Below are positions 1,198 through 19,188 of a DNA stretch of 29,469 bases, piece after piece. The notes below the pieces were generated by a model. The model searched no databases. It was not told the DNA's origin and was given only the letters and a program-made list of their open reading frames with translations. The stretch's first letter is position 1, and every line of letters starts with the position of its first letter. The stretch comes from a virus, in the IMG/VR virus record IMGVR_UViG_3300001846_000250, positions 1-29,469 of that record; one strand, given 5' to 3'. The translations under genes were made by a program, and so were the position numbers.

Positions 1198-3102
1198 TCA
1201 GGGAGCAGGCTGAGCACCGCCAGCTGCACCACCTGTAGTACCAGTAGTTTGATTGTACTGAACTGCCAGGAAGTCGCTAACTTCATTCTCAAACCCATTC
1301 ACTTGGAACGAGAGATCTGCACTAGAAGCATACACAATGACGTGAGAGTTAGGACCAACAACAATGCCTGTGTGAGCATTTGTTTCATTAGCACCGATTG
1401 CTACATCATAGAAGATGTAATCTTCTGCGTCCAAATCTGTAGCAGCAGTCACACTGTTGACTGTTGCATTAGCACGCTCAGCACCAGTTTCGGGAGGAGT
1501 ATCCACGAAAACGTCTGTTGCTGCAAATGCTGCAGAACCAGGACCAAGAGTAACTTTCAGGACACCTGCTGTGCTATCCCAAGCACTCACGAAACCGTAC
1601 TTACCACCAGTAACAGTACCAACTGTCAGAGATGCAGTACCGATTGTGAAGGTATCGCCAGTAACCCAAGTTCCCTCAACATCATAAAGATACACTTCAG
1701 TGAAGACTGGATCTGCCACGATATCAATCGAGTTAGAATATCCAGCAGTTCCTTCAGCGTAATAATACAAAGGATCTGGAGTTTGTCCATCGGGTGTGAT
1801 TTCAATCGTACCGTCAGTACCAGCAGTACCCGCCTTAGTAACACCAGTGGTGTATTCAGTACCAGCAGTAGGTGTTGCGCCAGTACCATCCAGAACGTCA
1901 GAGAATCTTAGGGGGAAACCTGTGTTGGATGCATCTGACTGATCGAACATATAGGTGCGATCAACGTCCATACTGAATGAGTTAGGAACTTCTTCTTGTC
2001 CCTGAACTGTACCCCAAACAAAACCTTCAACGTAAGTTGCAGAAGAAGTTGCCGTGAACTGAGTGTCAACTGTAGCGTTCGATGTAGCACCAGTGATAGT
2101 CTCAGCACCATCAAACCAATTGATCAGTGCTTGTCCGCCCTGAACCCAAGGAGTAGCAGTAGAACCATCAGCGTGTGCTGCTTCAGTTGTACCAAACTGA
2201 GCACGTGTCACTGTCCAGTCATTACCAGCAACGTCAGTAACAAGCATAACTTCGTTACCAATCTGAACATACTGACCAGAAATGGCAGTTGTACCATCGG
2301 TCACAGTCAGAGTAGTGTCACCGATGGCAAAAGTTGCACCTTCGTTAACAGTTGTAGTGGTTGTAGCGGCACTATAGAAAGTGGCAAGTTGACCAGAACG
2401 GTGGGCACCTGCAGTGGTACCGACTTGAGCACGAGTAACAACCAGGTCAGCACCGCCAGTGGTACCACTCCAGAAAGTTGCAGATGTAACTCCAAGAATC
2501 TCTGCTGCATAAGGAGCGGCAGCACCATCAGAGAGAACGAAATAAGAGTTTGCTACAGACTGAGTACCATCGCTAACGTTGACTGCAGTTGCAACGTTAG
2601 TGATATCAGCGACTTCAGCATTCAACTGAGTACCAAGTCCACGGTATGTTGCAGTGAATCCAGATGTACCACCAGTAATGGTTTCACCACCTTGGAATGT
2701 GCCGACAAGACCTGTAGTGTCTACACCGACTGTCGTTGTCGTCATAATCTTGACGTAGTTCGTAATCGTTGCAGTATCAACGAATACGTCAGCAAGTGCT
2801 GCTGACTTTGCCAAGTCCTCAGAAGTCAGAATCAAACCAGGAGTTGCATCCGATCTAGAGATACCAGGCAAGATTTCCATCTTGTAGTTGGTAACTGGGT
2901 TGTTTCTAGCAAACTGATAGGTGTTTGCATCCAGTGTAAGTTTCTGAGTATAATCTTTATGACCTACTCGATATGTCGCAGCGGCACCACCACGCTCTGC
3001 AACATTCAGGACTGTCGATGCAGTCACCAAGGAGTCGGTCGAATAAAGAACTGTATTTGTAGTTGCTGCTGGTGCGGCAGCAGCGAGTCTTCCTGCTGTC
3101 AT
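1198..3102 (-). CDS. Ala/Thr/Gly-rich repetitive virion (tail-fibre-like) protein
   Basis: A 634-residue protein very rich in Ala, Thr, Gly and Val with almost no Cys or Trp clusters, typical of beta-structured phage fibre proteins. It holds internal near-repeats: VTRAQVGTTAGAHRSG around residue 224 and VTRAQFGTTEAAHADG around residue 302. Glycine/threonine motifs of the type GGETITGGTSG and GAETITGATSN also recur. No enzymatic motif is visible. It follows the 441-residue gene by 7 bases and probably shares its promoter at 4464. I infer a virion surface or fibre component from composition and neighbours. No T4 gene number can be assigned. Confidence 0.75.
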   Translation of the reverse strand: MTAGRLAAAAPAATTNTVLYSTDSLVTASTVLNVAERGGAAATYRVGHKDYTQKLTLDANTYQFARNNPVTNYKMEILPGISRSDATPGLILTSEDLAKSAALADVFVDTATITNYVKIMTTTTVGVDTTGLVGTFQGGETITGGTSGFTATYRGLGTQLNAEVADITNVATAVNVSDGTQSVANSYFVLSDGAAAPYAAEILGVTSATFWSGTTGGADLVVTRAQVGTTAGAHRSGQLATFYSAATTTTTVNEGATFAIGDTTLTVTDGTTAISGQYVQIGNEVMLVTDVAGNDWTVTRAQFGTTEAAHADGSTATPWVQGGQALINWFDGAETITGATSNATVDTQFTATSSATYVEGFVWGTVQGQEEVPNSFSMDVDRTYMFDQSDASNTGFPLRFSDVLDGTGATPTAGTEYTTGVTKAGTAGTDGTIEITPDGQTPDPLYYYAEGTAGYSNSIDIVADPVFTEVYLYDVEGTWVTGDTFTIGTASLTVGTVTGGKYGFVSAWDSTAGVLKVTLGPGSAAFAATDVFVDTPPETGAERANATVNSVTAATDLDAEDYIFYDVAIGANETNAHTGIVVGPNSHVIVYASSADLSFQVNGFENEVSDFLAVQYNQTTGTTGGAAGGAQPAP

Positions 3103-3109
3103 TTGTTAA

Positions 3110-4435
3110 TTACCATCCTGCGACGAAGTGTTGTTGGAGTCTGAGTCTACCACCCAAATCGGGGGCAGAAATCGGTCCACCAAAGCTAACACCCAGTGTT
3201 CCGACGTTTTCGGTTGAAAGCAGAGTTGCGTCTGCATTCGGGAATTGAATAGTTTTAATTCCCTGAATATTAGAGAGATCAAGGTTGACCTGGTTCTGAT
3301 CGTTAACCTCATCAATAAGTGTGAGGGCAACGATAGACTTATTATAAAGGACTTGCTGAGACTTCTCAGCAACGAGAACATTGTTCTCACTAATAACTGT
3401 ATTTAGATTCTGATATGGGAACGAATATCTCAGAATCGTAGCGCCCGAAATATCGGACAAATCAAACTGAATCCTCTTACTAATGTCAGTACCATCAGCA
3501 AAACGAGGATCAGCATAATCCTTGTTCTTGAATGTTTGTGTTGATTCAGTACCAGCAATCTCAAGAGATTGGTCAGGGAATGTAACAACACGGTTTGCAG
3601 TCACATCACCAGAAAGGAATGTAACTTTTGGAGTTGGGTTATTGGGATCACCCGATTCAATGTCTGAAATTGAGGGGTTGATTAGGTTCTTGTTGCTGAT
3701 GTTCTGCTCTGTGAGATTATCGATCAGAGTAGATTGAGCAACACCTGTTCCATAGTCAGGAAGTCTGTAAATGTGTGTGCCAGGAGATTCCCAAGCATCA
3801 CACTCAAACAACGCAATCTTTGCAGTGTCAGATGAACCAGTAATTCTCAGGTCACCATCCTTGATGATGATCGTCTTGTTACTGATTGTCTGCGCTGTAT
3901 CATTACCAAGAAGAGTTGTAGATGTGAACTGACCCGTGCTAGGAAGCGCAAAGGTACGAATACCAGCACCAGTGGAAACACCAGAAACTTCAAACTTCGC
4001 TTTCTTGTCTGGGTTCTGGTCGTCAGCGATCAGAAGGTTGACATCTTGAAACTCTGCAGGTCCGTTAACAAGGAATCTACCCGAACCTTGCGGGCGCATA
4101 TCAATGTTAACATTGTTTGATGTGGTGTCACCAGCAATCAAACGAATTGTAGCGGAACCGTCTGCGTTATCCTGCTTTCTATAGTACATCGAAGATGTAC
4201 CAAATGCCAGACCAATTTCATTATATGAGTTTTGGTAAAGACCAGTGTCACGATCAAGGTCAAAACAAAGTCCAGGTTCTGCCTGGGATCCAGCACTAAC
4301 ACCTTTGAATAGTTGGTTGACCTTTGCTTTCCTATTAGGGATCAGAGGGTCAGAAATAACAACAGGGAGAATTGCTTCTCCCGTTAGGACGGCATCCGCC
4401 AGAGTGTCCAATTGTGAAATTCTTTTTGTTCCCAC
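3110..4435 (-). CDS. virion structural / tail-fibre-like protein
   Basis: A 441-residue protein that begins MGTKRISQLDTLADAVLTGE, an opening seen in cyanophage fibre-type structural proteins. The text alternates short beta-type segments, including the spaced repeats TAQTISNKTIIIKDG, LTEQNISNKNLINPS and STQTFKNKDYADP. These are three copies of a T-Q-x-x-x-N-K module characteristic of repetitive fibre shafts. No catalytic residues are evident. It is the first gene after a perfect TATAAATA box and probably heads a late transcript covering the next two structural genes. Its role in the virion is inferred. Confidence 0.75.
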   Translation of the reverse strand: MGTKRISQLDTLADAVLTGEAILPVVISDPLIPNRKAKVNQLFKGVSAGSQAEPGLCFDLDRDTGLYQNSYNEIGLAFGTSSMYYRKQDNADGSATIRLIAGDTTSNNVNIDMRPQGSGRFLVNGPAEFQDVNLLIADDQNPDKKAKFEVSGVSTGAGIRTFALPSTGQFTSTTLLGNDTAQTISNKTIIIKDGDLRITGSSDTAKIALFECDAWESPGTHIYRLPDYGTGVAQSTLIDNLTEQNISNKNLINPSISDIESGDPNNPTPKVTFLSGDVTANRVVTFPDQSLEIAGTESTQTFKNKDYADPRFADGTDISKRIQFDLSDISGATILRYSFPYQNLNTVISENNVLVAEKSQQVLYNKSIVALTLIDEVNDQNQVNLDLSNIQGIKTIQFPNADATLLSTENVGTLGVSFGGPISAPDLGGRLRLQQHFVAGW

Positions 4436-4463
4436 TTAACTCAGGCGCTAATTTATACATTCT

Positions 4464-4471
4464 TATTTATA
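4464..4471 (-). promoter_or_regulatory. late promoter, perfect TATAAATA
   Basis: The minus strand reads TATAAATA, identical to the T4 late promoter consensus, about 30 bases before the ATG at 4435. Its central TAA is also the stop codon of the upstream glutaredoxin gene. It is the best promoter match in the window. Confidence 0.75.
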
Positions 4472-4817
4472 CATCTCTCATATAGAGGTGCTGCAATGTT
4501 TCCTTCAATCCCCCGATATGTTTGTATCCTATCGCGATTTGCGGATATTGTGCCTCTGAACCAAATTCTCCCCTAAACTGTTTCTCAGTAAAGTCAACAT
4601 CTCGAACATATTTTTTGTAAACCATATTCTCGCTGTTTAACAGCATTTCTGCTCTCTCACATTCTTGACACCCATCTTTTGTGTACAAGATCACATCTGC
4701 ATACTTTGTTTGATTCATTTGCTTTACCATTTGTTTAGTAACATCACACCAGACATAGTTGGTAATTCTACCTTCTCTGTCTATTACACTATATTCAGTC
4801 ACGCTGTCTCCAATCAT
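4467..4817 (-). CDS. glutaredoxin-like thiol-disulfide oxidoreductase
   Basis: Residues 40-112 look like a glutaredoxin: ADVILYTKDGCQEC supplies the CxxC active site (Cys50, Cys53), followed by a helix, then a QYPQIAIG segment with the expected cis-proline and a GG turn (HIGGLKET). About 39 residues precede the fold. I chose ATG 4817, which overlaps the previous gene by 23 bases. ATG 4853 or a non-ATG start at 4901 would give a longer overlap, and no clear ribosome site decides between them. It probably reduces phage or host disulfides with glutathione, for example in nucleotide metabolism. It is distinct from the second glutaredoxin at 29016. Confidence 0.8.
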   Translation of the reverse strand: MIGDSVTEYSVIDREGRITNYVWCDVTKQMVKQMNQTKYADVILYTKDGCQECERAEMLLNSENMVYKKYVRDVDFTEKQFRGEFGSEAQYPQIAIGYKHIGGLKETLQHLYMRDV

Positions 4818-5112
4818 CTGGTTTGTCTTGTTTGAACCAATCAACGATTTCATCGGCAGACTTAAATCCTGACCTATAGTTAGAAGGATCTGGATCACCA
4901 AGTCCCATCTTGTTCATAAAATCGTCCATACTGCCCTCGACCATATCTGGATTTGCTGCTTTACGTCTTGCCTTATTCAACCAGTCACGAGCAGTAGTAT
5001 GAGACTTGGCAAGTTTTTCTGCCCAAATAATGTCACTTAAAGCAACCTCTTCACCAAGAACAATTTTACGACAGATCTCTTCAAGGCGAAGGCGATAGGC
5101 GGTGGAAAGCAT
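4795..5112 (-). CDS. conserved-looking hypothetical protein
   Basis: A 105-residue, mostly helical, charged protein. Residues 1-50 form a helix-turn-helix-like run (ALSDIIWAEKLAKSHTTARDWLNKARRKA), and the C-terminus is acidic and Trp-containing (IVDWFKQDKPDDW). It lies 1 base after the preceding gene and overlaps the glutaredoxin start, so translation is probably coupled. I do not recognise a named family. A nucleic-acid-binding role is possible from the basic helix but is not supported by any diagnostic motif. Confidence 0.7.
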   Translation of the reverse strand: MLSTAYRLRLEEICRKIVLGEEVALSDIIWAEKLAKSHTTARDWLNKARRKAANPDMVEGSMDDFMNKMGLGDPDPSNYRSGFKSADEIVDWFKQDKPDDWRQRD

Positions 5113-7253: not shown

Positions 7254-9707
7254 TCAGTTCAGGAGAAGTGGCAAGCCATAGACCTGAGTAGGTCCGACAC
7301 TGCAACCAACTGTCATAATACCAGTTCCGACGCTGTAAGAAGCGAGACCAGTAGTGACTTGGTTGACAATAGCACCCTGACCACCATTACAGAACTCACC
7401 GATTCCACCAGCAGCAGTGTTGACCATCGTAACGTGACCGCCAGAAGTTCCGTTAACAATATCAACGATACCCCCAGGAATAGTCTTACACTCAGTAATA
7501 CGGATGTGTGCTGCAGGGAGAGGACTGGTTCCAATACCAGTTCCGCAAATAGTGATGTCTGGACCCTTGATCATTGTCAAACGACCAGTCATCGAAAGGG
7601 GATTCACATTCAACATACCAATAAGTCCGAAATGAACGTTATTGATAAACTCGGATTTCCAAGCACATTCATTGATGATCTCACCAGAGATAGAGTTCAT
7701 CAAAGAAGATGCTTTGATTGTTGCTGCTGTGGCATTCAGATCGAGATTGCTGAGTGCACTCAGTTGAATATTTGCAGCCTGTATCTTCCAGTCACCCTCA
7801 TAGTTCTGATCATAATCTGATGAGAATGTCTGTGCTGCTTTCTTCTGTTTTGCCTCACCTGTAGGTTCGCCAGTATTAGGATCAGTTTCAACACCCTGAG
7901 AGATATGAAGGTTTTGTGTACCCAAGATCTCCAGGTTGAAATCACCCATAACCTTCAAGGTGAAATCACCTTCAACAGTCAGTGCGTGATTGCCCTTAAT
8001 TGTTTGGCACTTATCCCGTCCAATAATAGAGGTTTCGTTGCCAGGAATATTCGTGTGCTGGTCACCCAGAGAAGTTGCAATTGTTGTTTGTCCGCCTGCG
8101 TGAGAAACAATAGTCTTCTCCTTCCCCTTGGTGTTATCTTGAATGACCGAAGCGCCATTCATAAACGTCGTTGCTTGGATCGAATATGGATCTAAGTTAT
8201 CATAAAGGGAAGAAAAATAGTCCAGATTGGATTGAATTTGTCCTCCACCACCCACATCAAGTGTAATCTGCTGTTGGAGGAATTCAGGTACTGATGTACA
8301 CGTTGACGTTCCTAATAGTGGTAACCAGAATTTAACTTTCGATCCAGCAAGTTTTCGTCCACAATCATTCTTAAAGAGAGCAGCAAGAATACCAAGAAGA
8401 ATATTGATCAGATTACCCCAGTCAACTTTGGAGAAATCAAAACTAAACAACGAATTCAGACCTTCCTTCAATTTCCCTGCAGCACCTGCTGCTTGCTTAG
8501 CAACGGAGATGGCAGCAGCAATTTTTTGAGCAATGGCAGTAACCTTTGCCATCGATGCCTGAACTTTTTGCAGAACAGCATTGACAGTGTTATTCACTGC
8601 ATCAGACAAACCACCAACAACTTTGGTAACAACGGTACTAGCAATCGTGTTGGCAAAACCACTCACATCACCAAGAGCAGAACGAATTGTACCAATAATG
8701 TGCTGTGCTTCAAAATTGCAGAATAGACTCGTGATAAACTCGGATAATTTAAGCAGTGAGTTAATAATGCCAAGAGGAATAATGCTTCCAATTGCCTTGA
8801 GAACCGAATTCAACAGTTTTTCAATTCCCTGAGCAAGAATACTCTTCAAGGAAGACAGAATACCACTGATACCATTAGAAATTGCCTGCTTAATTGTTGC
8901 AAGTCTTTCACTGATAATATTATTTCTAACTTTCTGTCCAGTAATGAGTGACACAAGGTTACCATCCTTTCCTTGTGCAAGAGACCCTGCAAGTTGCCCA
9001 AACTCCGTGAGCATACGTTGCAAATCTCTTTCAAAACCTTCACCACTAGGACCATTCAAACCATCAGCAACACCCTGCGCTTCAGCGGGGACTTTCTTTG
9101 GGTTTGTTGTTGGGTTAGCAGGAGCACCAACTTCTGCCTTAGAGATAACACCACGAGACTTCTCTTCACCACCATTCTCGTCACCAGCTGTCGTTGTACC
9201 AACAACGTTCATTGGGTGACCACCATTCACCACCGTACCTTGTACGTTTTTTGCCTGGGGTGGCATCTGCTCCGTAGGTGCTTCATCCGCTGCAGCAACT
9301 GTAGTGGGACCAACTTCAGTTGATGTACTAGGACTAGAATCGGATGCCTTTGCATCATCCAGATTCTTGAATCCACGAATGGATCCCATAACGACAGGAA
9401 GTTGTGCTTCCTCACCATCTAAGAAGAAACCAATGACAGTTGCACCAACTTGCAGTTCGGACTTGGTACCAGTGTTCTTAATACCTGCCTGATCAGTAGG
9501 CAGCATTGGAACTGCCCACGGAAGATCTGACGTTGGCACGTCATCCAAATAAGATGCTTCTCCAGATCCAGTATACCAACCAATGATCCTAACTTTTACA
9601 CGACCCAAAAGTTGAGGATCTTTAATAGACTCGACTTCACCTACCCACCAGGTGAACCCGTCGCGTCCCATCACATCAGATTTTCCAATTGCAGTAGAAG
9701 CTGTCAC
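7254..9707 (-). CDS. gp5: gp5-like baseplate hub / central spike protein
   Basis: An 817-residue protein. Residues 15-115 form the gp5/VgrG OB-fold (FTWWVGEVESIKDPQLLGRV near the start, then LPWAVPMLP, VGATVIGFFLDGEE, PVVMGSIRGF). Residues about 125-220 are a Pro/Thr/Gly linker, and 220-440 are a long Ala/Ile/Leu helical region. From about 520 on come repeated short strands (KGKEKTIVSHAGGQTTI, NHALTVEGDFTLKVMGDF) expected of the trimeric beta-helix spike. T4 gp5 has a lysozyme domain between OB-fold and spike; I see no lysozyme motif here. The frame starts with GTG 9707, about 20 bases after the predicted late transcript start. ATG 9671 is an alternative. Confidence 0.88.
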   Translation of the reverse strand: MTASTAIGKSDVMGRDGFTWWVGEVESIKDPQLLGRVKVRIIGWYTGSGEASYLDDVPTSDLPWAVPMLPTDQAGIKNTGTKSELQVGATVIGFFLDGEEAQLPVVMGSIRGFKNLDDAKASDSSPSTSTEVGPTTVAAADEAPTEQMPPQAKNVQGTVVNGGHPMNVVGTTTAGDENGGEEKSRGVISKAEVGAPANPTTNPKKVPAEAQGVADGLNGPSGEGFERDLQRMLTEFGQLAGSLAQGKDGNLVSLITGQKVRNNIISERLATIKQAISNGISGILSSLKSILAQGIEKLLNSVLKAIGSIIPLGIINSLLKLSEFITSLFCNFEAQHIIGTIRSALGDVSGFANTIASTVVTKVVGGLSDAVNNTVNAVLQKVQASMAKVTAIAQKIAAAISVAKQAAGAAGKLKEGLNSLFSFDFSKVDWGNLINILLGILAALFKNDCGRKLAGSKVKFWLPLLGTSTCTSVPEFLQQQITLDVGGGGQIQSNLDYFSSLYDNLDPYSIQATTFMNGASVIQDNTKGKEKTIVSHAGGQTTIATSLGDQHTNIPGNETSIIGRDKCQTIKGNHALTVEGDFTLKVMGDFNLEILGTQNLHISQGVETDPNTGEPTGEAKQKKAAQTFSSDYDQNYEGDWKIQAANIQLSALSNLDLNATAATIKASSLMNSISGEIINECAWKSEFINNVHFGLIGMLNVNPLSMTGRLTMIKGPDITICGTGIGTSPLPAAHIRITECKTIPGGIVDIVNGTSGGHVTMVNTAAGGIGEFCNGGQGAIVNQVTTGLASYSVGTGIMTVGCSVGPTQVYGLPLLLN

Positions 9708-9731
9708 AATACGTCTATATTTTCCGTATGG

Positions 9732-9929
9732 TTATTTATCCAATTGCCTCAAGTATTCTTTCTCTTGCTGATAAGGATGCGTTTTGCCCGACCAGATCTC
9801 ATAACCTTCTACAAGATCTGGAATCAACCACTGGTCAACACGGTAACAATACTTCCAGTTGACAGGTTGAATACAATTCATCACGACAACTTGAAAGAAT
9901 GCTACTAGGTGAATCCAGAAACTATACAT
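9732..9929 (-). CDS. small protein with N-terminal hydrophobic segment
   Basis: A 65-residue protein whose first 18 residues (MYSFWIHLVAFFQVVVMN) are hydrophobic enough for a membrane anchor or uncleaved signal. A Trp/Tyr-rich soluble tail follows (WKYCYRVDQWLIPDL). It starts one base inside the stop of the HExxH protein gene (TAATG), so the two are probably co-translated. Its stop region carries the gp5 promoter. No family is recognised. Confidence 0.65.
   Translation of the reverse strand: MYSFWIHLVAFFQVVVMNCIQPVNWKYCYRVDQWLIPDLVEGYEIWSGKTHPYQQEKEYLRQLDK
9733..9740 (-). promoter_or_regulatory. putative late promoter GATAAATA for gp5
   Basis: The minus strand reads GATAAATAACC about 26 bases before the gp5 start. 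It differs from TATAAATA by the first base and overlaps the last codons and TAA stop of the upstream gene. Confidence 0.6.
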
Positions 9930-10615
9930 TACTTTTTAATGAATCCCTCTTCTTCTAACCATTTTCGGGTCAGTGGAGTAATTTCATAATCAGTCCACAT
10001 AGTACCAGCAGCACAAGATTTAAGTGCTTTCATAGTCATATTCTCAGTCTTTCCTGCCCACATTGCTTCTGCCTCCCAGGGAACTGCAGATGCTGGATAA
10101 GTCTTTTCTGCAATCTCACGCCACAGAGGAGGAACATCTTCCTCATTGTGAATGATAGCAATCATACTATTCTTGATGCTACCTGCCATACAGTCTTGTG
10201 CAGCGTGCCACCCTTCGTGACGCATTACACTCATCAAAGTACCATAACGTTTGACAAGTGTAGCATTAAGATAGAAGTTATTGCTGACAGTATGATAGAC
10301 ACCACGATGACCAGGGGGAAAATACTTCTCGGGTGCGATGAATACTTTGACCCCAACCTTATCCAATGCCGTCATCATTTCATTGAACTCAGTATATACT
10401 GGGTCCATCATTCCCATCTTTTTGTAGTATTTACCTACATCTTTAGCATTCTTGATTTGCACAACCCCTTCAGTACATTCTCGCAGAATCATACAACCCA
10501 TAGCATCATAGGTATACCAACCTTTAGTTGGTTCTGCATTTGCAGCAATGAATGATCCGTGAGCAGCGCCCAAAAGAGCCCCCGCAATAAGGGCATCACG
10601 AAGAGTATCAAGCAT
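9929..10615 (-). CDS. putative secreted zinc metalloprotease (HExxH)
   Basis: A 228-residue protein with an N-terminal stretch, residues 1-27 (LIAGALLGAAHGSFIAANA), that looks like a signal peptide or anchor with an Ala-rich cleavage region. HEGWH at residues 133-137 is a canonical HExxH zinc-peptidase motif in a helix (SVMRHEGWHAAQ). A downstream acidic run (PWEAEAMWAG) could supply the third ligand. I chose ATG 10615, which has AGGATGGA just upstream and overlaps the oxygenase gene by 8 bases. Peptidase activity is inferred from the motif. Export would place it in the periplasm or membrane, where a part in lysis or envelope remodelling is possible. Confidence 0.7.
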   Translation of the reverse strand: MLDTLRDALIAGALLGAAHGSFIAANAEPTKGWYTYDAMGCMILRECTEGVVQIKNAKDVGKYYKKMGMMDPVYTEFNEMMTALDKVGVKVFIAPEKYFPPGHRGVYHTVSNNFYLNATLVKRYGTLMSVMRHEGWHAAQDCMAGSIKNSMIAIIHNEEDVPPLWREIAEKTYPASAVPWEAEAMWAGKTENMTMKALKSCAAGTMWTDYEITPLTRKWLEEEGFIKK

Positions 10616-11171
10616 AAGAAATCCATCCTGTGACAATCATTTTCTCCTCTGTAGGAGCAGGAACACCGTGGTGAATATGTGTCCAGTCAACTGGCCAAAT
10701 CAAGGTCAAACCCTTTTCGGGTTGAATAGTAAGATCTTGGTGAACCCACTGTGTTTCACCACCTTCTTCCACGTCATTCAAATAAGTCATCCAAGTCAGA
10801 TGACGGAACGATGTGGTTTTATTTGACCCAACACGCTCACAATGTGGTTGGGAGAATGCTTGACCTGGTGCATAATGTTGAATATTGAATGGTTCGATCA
10901 CTTCAAGATCTGCCATTTTTGCCCAGGGATATTGTTCAACATAGAGTTGAATACACGCCTGAACTTCATTCAGATATGAAACGATTCGTGAATCTTTAAT
11001 CCACGACGGCACTGCCATATCAGTGGAGTTTTTGATCAACGGATCAATCCCACCACTATATTCGCCAGGAACTTTTTCAAGATAATCACAAGTGTTCCAG
11101 AAGTCGATTACCCCATCGATAACCTCTTCTTTCATTTTGCCACCTGCAATGAAAGATTGTACTGCAGTCAT
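10608..11171 (-). CDS. 2OG-Fe(II) oxygenase, prolyl-hydroxylase-like
   Basis: A 187-residue protein with the double-stranded beta-helix core of 2-oxoglutarate/Fe(II) dioxygenases. The iron triad is read as His110-x-Glu112 (QPHCERV) and a distal His at 165-168 (WTHIHHGVPAP), with Lys177 (EEKMIVTGW) as the likely 2-oxoglutarate-binding residue. The family's GGET turn is at 137-140. The HxE rather than HxD first motif is within the known variation. Such genes recur in cyanophage genomes; substrates are mostly unknown. It lies between cp12 and the metalloprotease gene in an accessory cassette. Confidence 0.85.
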   Translation of the reverse strand: MTAVQSFIAGGKMKEEVIDGVIDFWNTCDYLEKVPGEYSGGIDPLIKNSTDMAVPSWIKDSRIVSYLNEVQACIQLYVEQYPWAKMADLEVIEPFNIQHYAPGQAFSQPHCERVGSNKTTSFRHLTWMTYLNDVEEGGETQWVHQDLTIQPEKGLTLIWPVDWTHIHHGVPAPTEEKMIVTGWISYA

Positions 11172-11187
11172 AATTAAATACTAAAAA

Positions 11188-11400
11188 TCAGTCGTCGTAT
11201 ACTAGGCACTCAGGTGCACTCGGGTTATTATCGCAATACAATTCCAGGGATGTGGGATCGTGATGATCTTCGGGATGGCGCTCAGCGTATGCCTCAAGTT
11301 CTTCCAGTTCGCCTTCAATATGGCGGCGACGTTGTGCAGAAATTGTAGGATCGGCAAGTTCTTGCCTATCGGCTTCGATGTGTTGTTCGATGTTTTCCAT
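11188..11400 (-). CDS. cp12: CP12-like Calvin-cycle regulator
   Basis: A 70-residue acidic protein. The C-terminus LELYCDNNPSAPECLVYDD carries the CP12 C-x8-C pair (Cys56, Cys65) and its conserved Y-[DE]-D end. The central helix GELEELEAYAERH corresponds to the AWDxVEELxAExxH core, with the AWD part lost. There is no N-terminal cysteine pair. In cyanobacteria CP12 ties up GAPDH and phosphoribulokinase. Phage CP12 is known from cyanomyoviruses and is thought to slow the Calvin cycle so that NADPH goes to nucleotide synthesis. The C-terminal loop, which binds GAPDH, is intact, whereas the half associated with phosphoribulokinase is altered. It is 2 bases downstream of the hub gene. Confidence 0.92.
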   Translation of the reverse strand: MENIEQHIEADRQELADPTISAQRRRHIEGELEELEAYAERHPEDHHDPTSLELYCDNNPSAPECLVYDD

Positions 11401-11402
11401 TT

Positions 11403-12773
11403 TTACCTGCTAGAAATACTGTCTTTACAGAGATTTAGGTGAGTTGTAATACCCTCTGGAGTATACGAATGAGTTAACCCCTTGATAAGGTAATATCCCG
11501 AATAGGTAGGATCGAGTTCGACACGATTTGTATCTTGCCCCGATTGAGGAATTTCCAATTCAATGATCCTGCCTGCTTCCAATACTACATTACCTGGTAC
11601 CACGATGTCAAGTGTGATCGCATTCAGCAATTGCCATCTAGAGAAACTATAGGCACTTGCAGACAATGTGTCAACGTCCATATTCTGAGCATTGGCAGAA
11701 GAATCTCCAACAGATGATGAATTCTTCATTCCAGGTAGAGCACGAATTTTCATCCGTGTTGGAACCTTATCCGAAAAATATGTTTGATCGATTTTGGGAA
11801 ATGGGAACGATTCATTCAAAATACACCCCTTTCCCTTAGCCAAACCAAACACATTCAACAGACTCATATTGACAGGTGGTTTGATAGATCCTGTCGGACC
11901 ATCTTTACCCTGACCACCACCACTATTAGGCAAAGCACCACTTGTAAGTGCGGGTGCCTTAATTCCAATAACCGTATTACTATATGCACCTGTTCTCATT
12001 TTTTCCAGGTGGTTAGCACGAGCAGGAAAACTAATACTCTCTACTTTGAATAGGTTAACGTCCGCATTTCCAACGTTTGCCTGCTCATATCTATACTTTA
12101 GTATATTCTTCTTGTTTTCACTACTGCAGAGGTGATCAATAGTGACAAAATTGAATGCGGATTGAGTTTCATAAAACAAATATCCAGCAAGACCCTTCGA
12201 TCCACTCACACATTTGTCGCTGACATATGAGATGACATCAAACGGTCTCCAAGTTGGTGCAATAAAATTCAGGTTACCTCTAGTATCCTCAAAATTCAAA
12301 GATCTATCATTGGAAACGTTGAGATAGTCTTTCAAAACTTTACGAACAGTCTGACTTGCAGGCACTCCCATAAATGATTTGAAAACCTTCTTAGACTCAT
12401 TCGTAATCATATGAGGAGAAACCGTATACAGAATATACTGAACTGCTCTCTCACTCTTGGTAATCTCACCAATTTTGAATATTTGCTGTTTTATTTTCAA
12501 CGTCTTACCCGTCGCCTGCATCGACTCAATCTCAATTTCGATGATTTCATTACCATTCAATCCAGTAATCAGGTCAATAGTATCACCAATCATAAACTCG
12601 CATCGGATAGAGGGTGCATCAATAGACTCAATGTAATTAAATGCAGAGCATAGTTTTTGAATATTGATAGACGACTGATTTCCACGAACAGCGTCAAATT
12701 TCGCACTCGCTTGAATCTTTGGATCCAATTGAATCACAAAGTCTTTAATAGTATAACCTTTTGCCTGTTCCAT
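11403..12773 (-). CDS. gp27: baseplate hub protein, gp27-like
   Basis: A 456-residue protein with features of contractile-tail hub proteins of the gp27/gpD type. There is a tandem beta-domain (IRCEFMIGDTIDLI, then LKIKQQIFKIGEI), a QTVRKVLKDYL helix, the NFIAPTWRPFDVISYVSDKC block and a GYLFYETQSAFNFVTIDHL strand pair. T4 gp27 (391 residues) forms the trimer that connects the gp5 spike to the tail tube. The start is TGATG-coupled to the preceding 795-residue hub protein. Assignment rests on motif pattern and position in the hub operon, not on high identity. Confidence 0.7.
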   Translation of the reverse strand: MEQAKGYTIKDFVIQLDPKIQASAKFDAVRGNQSSINIQKLCSAFNYIESIDAPSIRCEFMIGDTIDLITGLNGNEIIEIEIESMQATGKTLKIKQQIFKIGEITKSERAVQYILYTVSPHMITNESKKVFKSFMGVPASQTVRKVLKDYLNVSNDRSLNFEDTRGNLNFIAPTWRPFDVISYVSDKCVSGSKGLAGYLFYETQSAFNFVTIDHLCSSENKKNILKYRYEQANVGNADVNLFKVESISFPARANHLEKMRTGAYSNTVIGIKAPALTSGALPNSGGGQGKDGPTGSIKPPVNMSLLNVFGLAKGKGCILNESFPFPKIDQTYFSDKVPTRMKIRALPGMKNSSSVGDSSANAQNMDVDTLSASAYSFSRWQLLNAITLDIVVPGNVVLEAGRIIELEIPQSGQDTNRVELDPTYSGYYLIKGLTHSYTPEGITTHLNLCKDSISSR

Positions 12774-15160
12774 CAGAAGAAGTTACTCAATACATTTGAA
12801 AGTTCTGCAGTTCGACCAAACCTGCTTGTCAAGAAACTCGTTGCTGGGTTTTCCTTAGAAGGTAGTGGAATTGGTATCGAAGGTGTAGCAGCGGGTTTAG
12901 TATCAACAGGAAGTTGAATTGCCTGCGCGACTGCCATATCTATAAGATTCTTCAGATCTCCAGATTCAACCTCTGAACTAATCTGCTTAATACGATTCAA
13001 TATACCAGTCAATGCTTGAGCACTCGTATTTGCACTCGCAACGGATGTACTCACTGTGTTATTCATCGATGCAAGCGCATTGCCTGCATAACTCGGCATC
13101 TGTGGACGTGATGCCATTCCACCAATCATATTAGCAGCAACCTTTCCTGCCATACCAAGAATGGAACTGAGACCGATTCCTGGCAACAAACCACCTGCAG
13201 ACTTAAGATAACCTGCAGATGCTGCCTCGTTAATTCTCCTAGATGTCAAACCAGGATCTCTACGAGTATGGGGGGTATCAAATGGTATTACAAATCCCCC
13301 AGCGGATTTCTGTGCCACATATTCTGTTCCGTGTCCGATAAAGTCTATACCTTTACCATTCAGTGAGACAGGATACCCAGACTGAGGTCCACTAATCCAT
13401 CCACCCTTACTCCTTCCTTTGGTTCTTTCAAGAACGGAAAGAGTATCCTGCCAAGTACGATGTGCTTTATTCTTGCCATCACCAGCATAATATGATTTAC
13501 CGTGAGCACCTGCAGGAAGTGCAGCCCACTCCATTGACAAGTTCTTAGCAAACTGCTCTTTTGTAATCTGTCCTGCCTTAAATTTATCAAGTCCACGACG
13601 CTTCAACAGCAGTTGGTAGATATAATCCTGCCCCTTCTTATCAAACTTAAATGTGTTTGGATCTTTACCAGCATTACGAAGGACTTCGGATGCAGTACGC
13701 ATTTGGATCTGATAACGACCCATAGCAAACTGACTACCTTTCTCCTGCGAAAGTTGGGAGATGGTTTTCTTCAGAATAGATTGATCTCTCTTACCACCAA
13801 CCAACATAGTGTAATCATTGCGAGATTCAACCTCGCCAATGAAACTTGCAAGATCTCCTCCTGCTAGACCAGCAGGCAACTCTCCCGCTCTTGCTGGTGT
13901 ACTTCCTGTTAGAGCGTTGACTGCCGTATTTCCTGCAGCATTAAGATCATCACCAACAGAGTCGCCGCCAACCCATTTAAGAACCTGTGTCAGACCCTTA
14001 AGCAGCATAATCAATGGGAAGAATGCAACTTTCCCCATAAATTCAGCAGCTTTCATCAAAGCGGGTAAATGGGGTTTTATAAAATCAACTGCTTTTTGAA
14101 TGACAGGACCCATTTCCTTGAATAGTTCCTTAATAGCATCTCCAAGGGGTTTGAAGAATTTCTCCAGGAACTTCATCACAGTATCGAAGATCTTCTTCAT
14201 TGTTTTGAAGAACTTATCAACGATCGGACCTAAGAATTTACCTGCTTCCTTACCTAAGAATCCACCGAGAGCACTACCGATCATACCACCGATAGGACCA
14301 GCAATATTGTTACCAACCTCACTCAAAAGCATAGCACCGCCAGCAGCGCCTACGCCTGCACCGATTGCTGCTGCTTTACGGTCCTCCTCAGGTATGCTCT
14401 CATCCTCCATTGTGACCTGATATGATCGGAATCCAATGGCACCTGCCATCAAACCACGACCTACAACATTTCCACCAAGGAACTTACCAAGATTGAGAAT
14501 TCCCTTACCAACTAATCCAAGGATTGAGGTAAAGTTTTTAATCGTTCCTGCTGGGTTGGACAAAAATGCCAATCCAAGTAAAGCACCACCAGCAACCAAT
14601 CCAAGTTTGGCAGCACCAGCGATTCTTTTTCCTAATGGACTATTTTCACCAAATGTATCCTCCCAAGCACCAGTAACAAAGTCGGCAATATTAGTAAAAG
14701 TCTCAACCATCCAGTTGAAGAACTTCTTCATTCCATTGACAACATTTTCAATCTTCTTCCTATTATCTGGTTGACTCAACCAGTCAAGGGCACCAAAGAC
14801 AAATAACTTCCCGAAAGTTTCAAGAAGACCTTCTAAGAATCCCTTTGCTCTGCCAGCAATGGCACCCACACCATCTTTGATACTGGACCTAGAACTACCA
14901 CCCTCAATTTTACCTTCTCTTGCTCTATCTGCAGCGAGTTGATTTGCTCTAGCAGCTGCTTGCTGCTGTTGTACTTGCAACTTTTGTTGCTTCAGTAGTG
15001 CTAAACCAATACTATTGACAGTTGCTCCCAGGGAATTAACTGCTTTAATAGTTGTGGCGAAACTGTCACCCGTAATTGTCTTATTGCCAACACTAATCGT
15101 TGCACCACTCTTCTTAGGTGGTGTGAGGTACTTATATAATCTGATTCTTGTCTCTGCCAT
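12773..15160 (-). CDS. hub/tape-measure-like protein with lambda-R-type muramidase domain
   Basis: A 795-residue protein. Residues 60-90 are a Gln/Ala-rich helix (AAARANQLAADRAREGKIE) and 110-135 hold FGALDWLSQPDNRKK. Residues 170-310 are Gly/Ala-rich and hydrophobic, with amphipathic Lys/Phe helices to about 395. Residues 437-580 look like a phage muramidase of the lambda R kind: SFIGEVESRNDYTMLVGG supplies the catalytic-type Glu, GSQFAMGRYQIQMRTASEV matches the family's GRYQ motif, and a C-terminal SMEWAALP segment follows. ATG 15160 forms TGATG with the previous stop. The N-terminal half resembles the neighbouring 795-residue protein, so the two look like paralogues with different hydrolase heads. 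Confidence 0.8.
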   Translation of the reverse strand: MAETRIRLYKYLTPPKKSGATISVGNKTITGDSFATTIKAVNSLGATVNSIGLALLKQQKLQVQQQQAAARANQLAADRAREGKIEGGSSRSSIKDGVGAIAGRAKGFLEGLLETFGKLFVFGALDWLSQPDNRKKIENVVNGMKKFFNWMVETFTNIADFVTGAWEDTFGENSPLGKRIAGAAKLGLVAGGALLGLAFLSNPAGTIKNFTSILGLVGKGILNLGKFLGGNVVGRGLMAGAIGFRSYQVTMEDESIPEEDRKAAAIGAGVGAAGGAMLLSEVGNNIAGPIGGMIGSALGGFLGKEAGKFLGPIVDKFFKTMKKIFDTVMKFLEKFFKPLGDAIKELFKEMGPVIQKAVDFIKPHLPALMKAAEFMGKVAFFPLIMLLKGLTQVLKWVGGDSVGDDLNAAGNTAVNALTGSTPARAGELPAGLAGGDLASFIGEVESRNDYTMLVGGKRDQSILKKTISQLSQEKGSQFAMGRYQIQMRTASEVLRNAGKDPNTFKFDKKGQDYIYQLLLKRRGLDKFKAGQITKEQFAKNLSMEWAALPAGAHGKSYYAGDGKNKAHRTWQDTLSVLERTKGRSKGGWISGPQSGYPVSLNGKGIDFIGHGTEYVAQKSAGGFVIPFDTPHTRRDPGLTSRRINEAASAGYLKSAGGLLPGIGLSSILGMAGKVAANMIGGMASRPQMPSYAGNALASMNNTVSTSVASANTSAQALTGILNRIKQISSEVESGDLKNLIDMAVAQAIQLPVDTKPAATPSIPIPLPSKENPATSFLTSRFGRTAELSNVLSNFF

Positions 15161-17547
15161 CACGCAATATTAGTGGGAGAATGTGCTGGTGCAAATTGTG
15201 GTTGTACTGCCACTTGCTGAACCACAGGTTTCACGATCGGTTGCAGAATAACAATGGGTTTGGTGGTACGACGACCAATCAGTGCTTCACGAGCTTCATT
15301 AACTGATCGAACATTTAGTTCTTGAGTACGTGCACTATTTAGACCGCTAATTGCAGTTGCGGTGCTGGCTCTAGAACCACCTTGTCCACCGTGTCCAAGT
15401 TGAGGTGGTGACAAAGAAGGACCACCACCGAACGGATGTTCCTTGTGGTATCTACCAAGAGGATTGACCCTAGACAATACATTTGATTTAGATCTTCCAG
15501 TGTCTGCAGGATTCCTAGCAACCTCCCAGTGTAGGTGTGGACCACTAGAACGACCCGTGTTACCTGTCACACCAAGAACTGCACCTTTCTGCACCTGTTG
15601 CCCAGGGCGTACATAGGCAGGTTTATCCATATGACCATAGAAGTTTCCATAACCATCGTTAGCAATCCAACTCACCCAGTTACCATAACCACTATCATAT
15701 CCAACCCCCTCAACTTTACCATTAGTAAAAGCAACCAAGTTCTCACCGATGGCAGTGGAAATGTCAACACCCATATGCATACCAGGTGACAAAGCAAGGG
15801 TACGGTTACCCATAGCAGATGTCACAATATGGTTTCCAGAACCAGGATCTCCTTGGAATCTAGGAGTTTGTATATCACCCAGATTTCTTCTATCAGCTTC
15901 TTCTTGTGCCTTTTTCTCTGCCTCAGCTCTTAGTTTTTCATATTCCGACTGTCTTACTTTCGATTCATATTTTGCCTCATTGAGTTGTCGTCTTGCGTTT
16001 TCAACATCTTCTGCAAGAGTATTATCTCCCCAATGATCCCTCTTATCACCACCTTCTTCTTGCATTCGCTTCATATAATGAGCGAGATTCTCTTCTGCCT
16101 TCTTCACTCGTTGTGCTGCTTCCTCAGAAGCAACTCGTGCCTTATCTGCCTTACCGCTATACAAATTAAGGAAATCGATCTTGGTAAAGAAATTACCTGT
16201 TTGTTGAGCAGCATCCTGAATGAATTGACCTGCGCCGCCAATAAAATCTCTCAATTTTTGAATCGCAGGACCAATAATGTTGCTATTCAAGAAGTCGATC
16301 ATCTTCTTGACAGCAGGATCAACAATAGGTTTCAGGAAGGCAGCAACCTTGTTGAATATATTTGTAACCTCTTGGAACAGTTCTTGGAACGGTTCAGCAA
16401 CAGGTTTAATATTAGCAATCCATAGGGGGAGAATAATTTCCTTAAACAGATTGCCGAGTGGTTCGAGAATGGGAGTGATTGCGTCACCCAAAAATGCACC
16501 AACTTGGTCACCCAAGAACCCACCAAGAGTTCCTCCCACAAGAGGCGCAAATGGACCCAAGACAGGCGTCAAGAGTGCCGTAAGTGCCACGGTACCAACG
16601 GTAGCACCAATACCACCACCAACTGCCTTCTGGACGCTATCACCAGAGGCTAGTCTGGTCCCTACAGATACAACACCAGACAAAAGACCAGCACCAGGAC
16701 CAGACTTAAGAAACCTACCCGCCCTACCTAGTGCAGTTGTTCCCTTAAATCCTGCTCTTCCAGGTACTCTAGTTGCAAATCTCCTCCTTGCCGCATCTCC
16801 ACCATATCTGCGAGCATATCTTTGCCTCGCTGCCTTAGATGCATTTGACGTACGTTGGTTTCTCGATGGTCGATTTCGATTTGATCCTGCAGGTCCATCT
16901 TTTTGTCCAGAACTAGAAGATCCCTCCTGTTTTCTGCCAAGTAACTTTCCAAGTGCTTGGACATCACCGATCAACTTCCACGGTTGGAGGATTCTTGATG
17001 CCAACCACAGTGCACCAACACCACCAATAATTTTCATAGCACCCATAATGGGGCTATCAGCACCAAATCCGTCAAGAATAAGTTCTATACCCTTGAACGC
17101 AGTCTTGAATCCAGTCTTTACCCAATTGGTAATGATGGGTAAAGTCTTTTCCAGAAAATTCTTATTTTTCGGGTCACTCAACCAATCCAGGAACCAGAAA
17201 GTTAATGCCTTCTCAATAAAATCCTTGAATGGACCAAGTAAACGATCTAAGAAACCTCCACCATCTCCCTTCAGTTTCGTACTTAGTTTCGCCCCCTTTA
17301 CGACTTCACTCCTAGTTTTATTTTCAATCCTCGATTCTCTGCCCTTATCAAGAGCAAGTTGATTCGCCCTGGTAGCGGCAAGGGCAGCATCTGCTTGGGA
17401 TTTATACATCCCAGTGATAATCTTACCCAGATCTTCTACAGTCGCACCCAGTCTATTGATAGACGTAGTAAGACCAGCGACGGGATCTACAGTAATATCG
17501 CCGCTGGTCTTTGCTGGTATAAAAGAACGTATTTTGAGTGCTGCCAT
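15160..17547 (-). CDS. hub/tape-measure-like protein with M23 endopeptidase domain
   Basis: A 795-residue protein. N-terminal features parallel its neighbour: AATRANQLALDKGRESRIE, FWFLDWLSDPKNKN, then a Gly/Ala/Leu-rich hydrophobic region near 320-370. Residues about 466-556 form a charged coiled coil (EEAAQRVKKAEENLAHYMKR and on). Residues 565-680 are an M23 (lysostaphin-type) zinc endopeptidase: GMHMGVDIS gives HxxxD, YGHMDKPAYVRPGQQVQKG follows, and GPHLHWEV gives the HxH. Position directly after the gp26/frameshift genes is where a tape measure is expected. The M23 domain probably cuts peptide cross-links during injection. Confidence 0.85.
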   Translation of the reverse strand: MAALKIRSFIPAKTSGDITVDPVAGLTTSINRLGATVEDLGKIITGMYKSQADAALAATRANQLALDKGRESRIENKTRSEVVKGAKLSTKLKGDGGGFLDRLLGPFKDFIEKALTFWFLDWLSDPKNKNFLEKTLPIITNWVKTGFKTAFKGIELILDGFGADSPIMGAMKIIGGVGALWLASRILQPWKLIGDVQALGKLLGRKQEGSSSSGQKDGPAGSNRNRPSRNQRTSNASKAARQRYARRYGGDAARRRFATRVPGRAGFKGTTALGRAGRFLKSGPGAGLLSGVVSVGTRLASGDSVQKAVGGGIGATVGTVALTALLTPVLGPFAPLVGGTLGGFLGDQVGAFLGDAITPILEPLGNLFKEIILPLWIANIKPVAEPFQELFQEVTNIFNKVAAFLKPIVDPAVKKMIDFLNSNIIGPAIQKLRDFIGGAGQFIQDAAQQTGNFFTKIDFLNLYSGKADKARVASEEAAQRVKKAEENLAHYMKRMQEEGGDKRDHWGDNTLAEDVENARRQLNEAKYESKVRQSEYEKLRAEAEKKAQEEADRRNLGDIQTPRFQGDPGSGNHIVTSAMGNRTLALSPGMHMGVDISTAIGENLVAFTNGKVEGVGYDSGYGNWVSWIANDGYGNFYGHMDKPAYVRPGQQVQKGAVLGVTGNTGRSSGPHLHWEVARNPADTGRSKSNVLSRVNPLGRYHKEHPFGGGPSLSPPQLGHGGQGGSRASTATAISGLNSARTQELNVRSVNEAREALIGRRTTKPIVILQPIVKPVVQQVAVQPQFAPAHSPTNIA

Positions 17548-17743
17548 TAAAGTGATTGCTGTCTGGACGCTGCCTTTTGACGTTGTTCTTCTTCACGAAG
17601 ATAACGAAGCAGAAGGTTCACGTACACATCCCTCTCCCACGGCATCATATTCTCAAGTTCAGTTAGACTGTACTTGTGATACTGCATCAGAGCAAAGTTT
17701 GTCTCATACAGGTTCAAAAGAGAGTCGTGTGCGAGGGCTACCC
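17547..17743 (-). CDS. -1 frameshift extension of gp26 (putative tail-assembly chaperone T-like part)
   Basis: The -1 frame after the gp26 slippery site reads RVALAHDSLLNLYETNFALM, then a helix SLTELENMMPWERDVYVNLL and a charged end, 65 residues to a TAA that overlaps the next start (TAATG). No ATG occurs until residue 20 (base 17687), and the frame is closed by a TGA just upstream of the slip. Independent initiation would therefore lose the first third. Read as a -1 fusion the product is 298 residues. The arrangement matches lambda G/GT. An alternative is a free 46-residue protein from ATG 17687. Confidence 0.7.
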
Positions 17744-18442
17744 GAAAAAACTGGCAAGTCCCTCAATAGTAAGTGTACTGGTAACACCCGTTTTGGGGTT
17801 AGTAATCTCAAGATCGTGAGACAGTTTTGGCATCGTTTCAAAGAAAGATTGAACCGATCTAAACTGTTGTGAATTCATCCCCTCAAAGAACTCCAGGAGT
17901 TCCGCCTTCTTGTAGTCCTTGGCTTGATACAACTCATCACCTTCAGCGATGCTTTCAGTACAATCAGCTGCAAGTTGGAAAATATCATCGATACCAGGGC
18001 TGTCAGAAAGATTATTTTTCACGAAGACATCCAGCGAAGGATACTTCATTGTCAGAGTCACATCGTCTGTGATTTTAATCACATTCGTATGGTCCTTGGG
18101 GATTTGAATTTGAACCTCATCGAGATTGACACTCACATCAACCTGAGTTTCCTCATCATCGGGACAGGTAAGTTTGAATTCACTCACCTCACCAACAGAC
18201 TTGGAACGAATCTTCAGGAAAAGAAATTCAATCTCAAATGTTGCAAGTTCTTCCACCTTCTTCACGCTCGTGCAGTTTTTGATAATCTCTTTAACTGCTT
18301 TGATCATCTCCTTATTATCCTGAGTTTCCATTGCCATATAGAGAAGTTTCTCTTCACGAACAAGGAAAGGACGATAAGTTATAGATTGTCCACGAGGAAG
18401 AACGCATTCATAATCAGGAATGCTCAGTTTAGGTAAAGGCAT
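17738..18442 (-). CDS. gp26: gp26-like baseplate hub assembly protein / tail chaperone
   Basis: A 234-residue protein resembling T4-type gp26 baseplate proteins (T4 gp26 is 208 residues). It begins MPLPKLSIPDYECVLPRGQS, then has YRPFLVREEKLLYMAMET, an IKNCTSVKKVEEL segment, an EFLFLKIRSKSVGE strand and an acidic, helical C-terminus. In the T4 system gp26 works in hub assembly. Its position between a tail-tube-fold gene and a tape-measure-like gene, together with the frameshift site at its end, suggests that it acts like lambda gpG as a tape-measure chaperone. A CTAAATA box lies about 30 bases before its ATG; no clear Shine-Dalgarno is seen. Confidence 0.8.
   Translation of the reverse strand: MPLPKLSIPDYECVLPRGQSITYRPFLVREEKLLYMAMETQDNKEMIKAVKEIIKNCTSVKKVEELATFEIEFLFLKIRSKSVGEVSEFKLTCPDDEETQVDVSVNLDEVQIQIPKDHTNVIKITDDVTLTMKYPSLDVFVKNNLSDSPGIDDIFQLAADCTESIAEGDELYQAKDYKKAELLEFFEGMNSQQFRSVQSFFETMPKLSHDLEITNPKTGVTSTLTIEGLASFFG
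17744..17750 (-). promoter_or_regulatory. -1 ribosomal frameshift slippery heptamer T TTT TTC
   Basis: On the minus strand the gp26 codons are AGT TTT TTC GGG TAG, so TTTTTTC is phased exactly as X XXY YYZ, two codons before the stop. It resembles the TTTTTTG slip of P2 E/E'. I found no convincing downstream stem-loop; only a weak GGG-CCC pairing follows. Confidence 0.7.
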
Positions 18443-18468
18443 CGTTTAAGAGTACACGTCAGTAATTC

Positions 18469-18475
18469 TATTTAG
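18469..18475 (-). promoter_or_regulatory. putative late promoter box CTAAATA for gp26
   Basis: The minus strand reads GTCTAAATAGAA, with the TAA serving also as stop of the upstream tail-tube-fold gene. It is about 27-33 bases before the gp26 ATG. Confidence 0.6.
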
Positions 18476-19188
18476 ACCCCGAATTGGGTGTTGATTCCAT
18501 TTCTACCTAACAGAGTAGAAACCAAATCAAAATCATTCAAAACAACCTCATTTGTCCACTCACTTGTATTCTTAACCTTTGTCGTAAATCTATACCTTTC
18601 ATACTTAAAGATAACATCCATCTTCATCAGTTGTGCATCATTAGAATATGTGATACCCGAAAGGTTGTATGGGAAGGCACCAACAAATCTATAAACACCA
18701 GTTGCTTTATTCAGTCTAGTCTCTCGTCTGTCACCATCAGCAGTAACTGCTCTCGCTTTGATATTACTACCACTTTCCCACTTACGAATTGTGATGTCAG
18801 TAACATAATCATCGTAGAATGCTACTCTGTTCTCATTGTCAGGAGCGATAGCGTGCATCCATCTTTCAAAGGTATCTCTATGCCAATTATTCTTAGTCAT
18901 AAGGAATGAAATTGTCAATTCATTCGCTGTCTGACCTGTAGCGTATGCTCTCTTGATGCCAACTGTCTTATGCTCTCCAGTAGTAATATTTCTGGAGGGT
19001 AAAGAAACCGAGTCCGCAAAATAATTCACTGCATTATAATAATCTTGAGGTGCAAACCTAAAGTTTGGTTGAGCAAACAAGATGGTGGGAACACCCATCT
19101 CAACCGAAAAGAGATTGCCTCTAGAGGGTTCAAACGAACCCGTAGCAACGAGATCTCTAAAAACTGTAAATGAATTAGGTGCTGGCAT
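18472..19188 (-). CDS. tail-tube-fold baseplate protein (gp54/gp19-like)
   Basis: A 238-residue protein with the beta-rich make-up of contractile tail tube proteins: an N-terminal NLFSVEMGVP strand, a SVSLPSRNITTGEHKTVGIK segment typical of the tube beta-barrel, ELTISFLMTKNNWHRDTFERW, and a C-terminal strand ending FKYERYRF. T4 has three such proteins: gp19 (tube), gp48 and gp54 (tube cap and initiator). gp48 lies just upstream on the other strand, so gp54 is the likelier counterpart, although it is shorter than T4 gp54 (320 residues). It starts in a one-base overlap with the preceding stop. Confidence 0.7.
   Translation of the reverse strand: MPAPNSFTVFRDLVATGSFEPSRGNLFSVEMGVPTILFAQPNFRFAPQDYYNAVNYFADSVSLPSRNITTGEHKTVGIKRAYATGQTANELTISFLMTKNNWHRDTFERWMHAIAPDNENRVAFYDDYVTDITIRKWESGSNIKARAVTADGDRRETRLNKATGVYRFVGAFPYNLSGITYSNDAQLMKMDVIFKYERYRFTTKVKNTSEWTNEVVLNDFDLVSTLLGRNGINTQFGV

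Follow-up and report, generated by a model that had tools for sequence, protein, structure and literature searches.

Two adjacent paralogous genes, here called X and Y, lie in the baseplate gene cluster of a 29,469-nt stretch of viral DNA (positions 1-29,469 of IMG/VR record IMGVR_UViG_3300001846_000250, hereafter the window), and the best overall explanation, which we consider probable, is that they encode duplicated tail proteins delivering complementary wall enzymes, with gp5 serving as a mechanical spike only. The predicted proteins resemble those of Synechococcus and Prochlorococcus phages and mark the window as part of the genome of a T4-like cyanomyovirus (Kyanoviridae), an ocean virus of cyanobacteria; the nearest named phages for gp5 and for the protein at the gp27 position are S-SZBM1 and P-TIM40. 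Read along the minus strand, the genes are gp26, a short gp51-like gene, X, Y, the gp27-position gene, two small genes, and gp5, and the gp51, X, Y, and gp27 genes overlap one another by 1-4 bases. A preliminary description of this DNA had proposed that wall-degrading activity was moved from gp5 to two paralogous hub proteins, a division of labor different from that of T4. We infer the catalytic activity, tail position, and timing of action of X and Y.

A central spike without a recognizable lysozyme

Compared with T4 gp5, the window homologue has the N-terminal OB fold and the C-terminal trimeric beta-spike and lacks the central lysozyme domain. Its Pfam matches are Gp5_OB and Gp5_trimer_C only, both slightly below the curated cut-offs, and residues 15-112 match T4 gp5 (1PDL) in phmmer with an E-value of 1.7e-9. 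The AlphaFold model (mean pLDDT 62) contains the OB fold, helices at residues 223-241, 264-306, 312-359, and 367-406, and the beta-spike; helices of up to 48 residues were predicted between 223 and 444, with middle-region pLDDT mostly 50-80, and no lysozyme fold was seen in the model. Foldseek matched T4 gp5 (E 1.6e-11), and all six significant matches were T4-type gp5 structures sharing the OB fold and spike. These results agree with the preliminary description, in which gp5 kept the OB fold and spike and was helical where T4 has lysozyme. No wall hydrolase was found in 56 diverse gp5 proteins scanned with Pfam, and local hydrolase HMMs applied to 163 gp5 open-reading frames (ORFs) found none except in T4's own gp5. 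No cryptic lysozyme was found in gp5 by Pfam, the local HMMs, the model, or Foldseek. The model of the gp5 middle is only moderately confident, which leaves a little room for a lysozyme diverged beyond sequence search, yet long helices such as those predicted (40-48 residues) do not resemble a lysozyme, Pfam recognized no hydrolase in the 56 homologues, and the overall Foldseek list consists of spikes of the gp5/VgrG type together with OB or helical proteins that are unrelated, so that we regard this alternative as barely credible. The loss of the gp5 lysozyme is itself already known, since GenBank annotates KVP40 gp5 as being without a lysozyme domain. On these results it is misleading to label the gp5 proteins of cyanophages 'tail lysozyme'. 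Two other loci (L151:13317-13829 and L034:12179-12823) have small separate ORFs with Phage_lysozyme2-type domains further downstream, within the gp5 region or close to it.

Paralogous proteins with predicted complementary hydrolases

X has an M23 peptidase domain (PF01551, above its cut-off) with both metal-site motifs intact (H591-x3-D595 and H671-x-H673), as the preliminary description had read from HxxxD and HxH. Y keeps the Glu (E444) and the GRYQ motif (at 482) of a lambda-R-like domain that spans approximately residues 438-579. Pfam misses this domain, and phmmer with Y alone against the PDB gave no lysozyme match; a profile of relatives was needed, and one built from the lambda-R domains of 23 relatives matched lambda lysozyme (1AM7/3D3D) with an E-value of 5.4e-7. 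Lambda R is a lytic transglycosylase and not a true muramidase. The lambda-R-type assignment with GRYQ stood; the earlier label 'muramidase' proved loose: by the lambda precedent, the Y domain is expected to be a lytic transglycosylase, cutting glycan by a different chemistry. Catalytic residues are intact in both predicted domains, in keeping with the proposal of complementary enzymes on two neighbors and a division unlike that of T4.

The paralogy of X and Y was confirmed by BLASTP (E 4e-18) and by profile-profile comparison (E 4.7e-19 over 194 columns), and it covers the N-terminal helical part. The two had been described as adjacent 795-residue proteins; they are adjacent and X has 795 residues, whereas Y has 796 counted from the first GTG. 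No claim is made for purifying selection on the enzyme domains from the comparison of the window with its close relative L098, because dS between the two is very low as well and they diverge in a mosaic.

Survey of the X/Y locus in related phages

Loci related to the window's gp27-position protein were collected from IMG/VR and phage records, and 124 loci were reduced to 81 by similarity of the Y C-terminus, eight single-gene loci being admitted by hand. An X-Y pair directly precedes gp27 in 75 of the 81 dereplicated loci, the other six having one gene or a truncated neighbor. Wall hydrolases of at least twelve kinds occupy the X/Y slot, as matched by twelve local domain HMMs. After residue 200 of Y, Pfam recognized M23 (15), Phage_lysozyme (5), M15_3 (5), and Amidase_2 (3), with one or two each of Glucosaminidase, CHAP, Hydrolase_2, NlpC/P60, GH19, SLT, and Phage_lysozyme2; after residue 200 of X it recognized M23 (10), VanY (5), and Phage_lysozyme2 (3), plus C39_2, Amidase_2, and others. 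Local iterated HMMs added lambda-R in 27 proteins. By class, 34 loci have both glycan and peptide/amide cutters, 19 have peptide/amide cutters only, 8 have glycan cutters only, and in 20 none was recognized. The longest Y relative seen is a Y-position ORF of 2059 residues (L055), which may mark a very long-tailed phage.

The enzyme also changes place: in the window's Y it precedes the conserved GPxSGYP block, and in the Y of S-SZBM1 and of S-RIM8 it follows that block. L098, which is 97.8% identical to the window over 20.5 kb, diverges from it in a mosaic, being near-identical from gp5 to the C-terminal part of Y, then stepping up sharply at ~13,800, the start of the Y lambda-R domain, with a second low-divergence block at position 16500 corresponding to the C-terminal half of X. 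In this one genome pair, the mosaic at the lambda-R domain fits module exchange. The domain assignments across the loci indicate that X/Y is a common platform across Kyanoviridae whose enzymes are freely swapped, and that enzyme-bearing X/Y with a lysozyme-free gp5 is the usual state in this family and not peculiar to the window phage. A T4-type lysozyme is found in Y of S-CRM01, S-N03, and S-CREM2, and in S-CRM01 it is not in gp5. The proposed move from gp5 holds in part: gp5 is without a detectable hydrolase and its neighbors bear enzymes, but the direction of a move is unsupported because most of the enzyme folds have no relation to that of the gp5 lysozyme, though some relatives' Y has the T4-type fold.

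Combination of glycan and peptide cutters

An absolute mixing rule, as in the initial count of 34/34, is broken by S-CREM2, S-N03, and S-H34, which have glycan cutters only (GH19 and T4-type lysozyme, with or without lambda-R). The revised count includes these three, leaves out three degenerate lambda-R domains (L138, L141, and L143), and takes in one sub-threshold M23 (L083, Pfam E 7.6e-4). Glycan and peptide/amide cutters are combined in 32 of the 35 loci with at least two enzymes, whereas label shuffles that ignore the tree averaged 18.4 and never exceeded 30; counted by distinct architecture, the only level at which the tree enters, the figure is 19/21 (p = 5e-4). A glycan cutter in X with a peptide cutter in Y was counted 10 times and the opposite arrangement 8 times; in 10 cases Y holds both kinds. 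This pattern suggests that folds and carrier change while the glycan-plus-peptide mix stays near-obligate, which would make it a clean natural example of functional complementation.

Several observations weigh against X and Y as carriers of a selected enzyme pair in the tail. The surveyed loci were picked for resembling the window in gp27 and are related by descent, domain boundaries in most relatives come from the local iterated HMMs, and to these are added the tree-blind shuffles and the three glycan-only phages. No hydrolase was recognized in 20/81 loci and a single class in 27/81, and therefore enzymes may be elsewhere, unrecognized, or dispensable. In the Y proteins of L138, L141, and L143, GRYQ has become GRYG and the region of the catalytic Glu is altered, so these lambda-R domains are probably inactive. 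The AlphaFold model of the window's Y is poor overall (pLDDT 54) but reaches 84-92 over about residues 461-520, and Foldseek with the full model returned nothing significant, an i-type lysozyme at rank 2 (E 1.5) being meaningless. The virion proteome of S-SZBM1 includes the gp27-like protein, and X and Y are not listed in it.

Location in the virion and proposed mode of action

In S-CREM2, ORF208 and ORF209 occupy the X and Y positions and were identified by virion mass spectrometry with 73 and 71 unique peptides (PMC10665884, Table 3). The authors of that study suggest that the two are encapsidated (PMC10665884), and packing in the capsid with ejection alongside the DNA has a precedent in T7-type internal enzymes (PMC6024856). 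We consider this improbable for X and Y, whose genes belong to the tail-hub cluster and whose co-varying lengths fit a tail constraint better. PHROGs and several GenBank records name relatives 'endolysin', the enzyme folds are common to endolysins, and true lysis genes would be out of view in a window of just 29 kb, so X and Y could instead be lysis endolysins acting from within late in infection, with hub-gene proximity incidental. That account is quite improbable given the strict synteny with gp26, gp51, and gp27, the large helical N-terminal parts, often with membrane segments, that are kept even where no enzyme is recognized, and the presence of the S-CREM2 homologues in the virion of a phage whose genome has four ORFs classed as lysis.

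With X and Y read as tail proteins, the gp26-gp51-X-Y-gp27 cluster would make a long, mostly helical duplicated pair built into the virion tail, most probably within the hub or immediately above it, with each member able to bear wall-hydrolase modules toward its C-terminal half. Upon sheath contraction gp5 would act as a purely mechanical spike and X and Y would then enter the periplasm; the transglycosylase-type domain of Y would open glycan strands and the M23 domain of X would cut peptide crosslinks, allowing the tube to cross the peptidoglycan. Recombination would exchange modules, and selection would tend to keep one glycan cutter and one peptide cutter per phage.

A possible tape-measure role

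The label 'hub proteins' agrees with gene position and relatives, but 'tape-measure-like tail proteins' may describe X and Y better. X ranges from 500 to 1565 residues, and the lengths of X and Y co-vary (Pearson 0.92, n = 76); after independent contrasts on the gp27 tree the correlation was 0.63, with gp27-length controls of -0.08 and -0.02, and the co-variation was stronger for total length than for length minus enzyme domains. This length locking is suggestive, not decisive, of a common tail-lumen or tape-measure role. A profile search for the gp29 family (phrog_1283) in 12 Kyanoviridae genomes and KVP40 gave no convincing match (T4 control 2.8e-252); the sub-threshold matches were at E 0.0025 inside the Y gene of S-CAM1 (L012) and at E 0.08 elsewhere, in S-CRM01. 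Neither profile searches nor profile-profile comparison linked X or Y to T4 gp29. Among four phages with published tail lengths, the ratio of tail length to X length is ~0.13-0.15 nm per residue in S-SZBM1, S-N03, and S-H34, near that of a helix, and 0.27 nm per residue in S-CREM2 (418 nm tail, X of 1565 residues).

We tentatively suggest, as a possibility somewhat short of an even chance, that X and Y are duplicated, length-locked tape measures replacing gp29 that double as interchangeable wall-enzyme carriers, with the glycan/peptide pair kept by selection. Alternatively, the enzymes may be attached at the rim of the baseplate hub or to its exterior and not in the lumen, X and Y being hub parts and another protein the tape measure; the missing gp29 homology and the S-CREM2 ratio, far from the helical value that fits the other three phages, point this way. 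We hold it unlikely, as the helical content, membrane-like segments, and length locking of X and Y stand against it, and the 12 Kyanoviridae genomes offer no gp29 match elsewhere bar the two sub-threshold ones, the better of which is inside a Y gene.

Comparison with known systems

T4 shares with the window the OB fold, the spike, and the neighbors gp26, gp51, gp27-like, gp48, and gp53; unlike the window, T4 has its lysozyme in gp5, lacks the enzyme-bearing paralogues, and has gp29, which was not convincingly detected in the 12 Kyanoviridae genomes. KVP40, similar in its gp5 annotated as lysozyme-free, differs in having a single large protein (656 residues) at the X/Y position, with no hydrolase recognized there. 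The same division occurs outside cyanophages in the Stenotrophomonas phage DLP6 (L189), whose 305-residue gp5 (18258-19175) has no room for a lysozyme and whose 720-residue protein annotated as lysozyme (2884-5046) follows gp26-gp51, although it too has one large protein at the X/Y position. The S-CREM2 'endolysins' ORF208 and ORF209 resemble X and Y in position, virion presence, and hydrolase domains (GH19; lambda-R and T4-type lysozyme); they differ in being glycan cutters only and in N-terminal parts unmatched by the local X/Y N-terminal HMMs. In RaK2 gp078 and CBB_240, large T4-related baseplate proteins with a relocated lysozyme and possible M23 domains, the enzyme remains in the gp5-like chain, unlike the window.

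The lysin gp13 of phi29 is virion-associated and combines lysozyme and M23. Virion-associated lysins likewise combine glycan and peptide cutting, or place enzymes on tape-measure proteins (PMC6024856). The window differs from all of these in dividing the activities over two paralogues, between which they are shuffled, in a T4-like myovirus. We found neither the modular X/Y platform nor the mixing rule reported elsewhere; the gp5 lysozyme loss and the 'endolysin' labels were already known. Marine cyanomyoviruses are very abundant, and their wall-breach route and tail-measuring protein are poorly assigned; the X/Y pair provides candidates for both. If the tape-measure reading is true, tail length and wall-entry chemistry would be set by the same two genes. 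The X/Y modules also amount to a catalogue of predicted enzymes directed against the peptidoglycan of cyanobacteria.

Feature positions and neighboring genes

Table 1 Positions in the window of the features discussed
Feature	Position	Strand	Evidence
gp26-like baseplate protein, 234 aa	17738..18442	-	PF12322, E 2.7e-69
Short gp51-like gene, 56 aa, TTG start, between gp26 and X	17547..17717	-	Alignment to gp51 as annotated in cyanophages (PWERDVYVNLL)
X, 795 aa, helical paralogue with M23 peptidase	15160..17547	-	ORF, Pfam, PHROGs, BLASTP, profile-profile
M23 domain of X, aa 590-679; H591, D595, H671, H673	15511..15780	-	Pfam, E 9.9e-24
Y, 796 aa, helical paralogue with lambda-R-type enzyme	12773..15163	-	ORF, PHROGs, BLASTP, model
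Lambda-R-type domain of Y, aa 436-582; E444, GRYQ at aa 482	13418..13858	-	Profile to 1AM7/3D3D; alignment of 23 relatives
Conserved block of Y, aa 586-652 (GGWISGPQSGYPV...FIGHGTEYV), small beta-rich region	13208..13408	-	Relatives' sequences, model
gp27-position tail/hub protein, 456 aa	11403..12773	-	phrog_350; conserved directly downstream of Y in surveyed loci
gp5 homologue, 817 aa, central spike without lysozyme domain	7254..9707	-	PHROG_694, E 4e-149
gp5 OB-fold domain, ~aa 10-112	9372..9680	-	Pfam, phmmer, AlphaFold
gp5 middle region, ~aa 190-445, long helices in place of the T4 lysozyme	8373..9140	-	AlphaFold model
gp5 beta-spike, ~aa 505-685	7653..8195	-	Gp5_trimer_C; pLDDT 70-91

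Both small genes between the gp27-position gene and gp5 are on the minus strand. The ORF at 10608-11171 encodes a 187-residue 2OG-Fe(II) oxygenase-like protein, and S-SZBM1 has an annotated 2OG-Fe(II) oxygenase at the matching position. The ORF at 9929-10636 encodes a 235-residue protein (phrog_591) with a zinc-peptidase-like HEGWH motif at residue 140, and no other DNA in the region is as well conserved among cyanophages (83-88% identity to S-RIM8).
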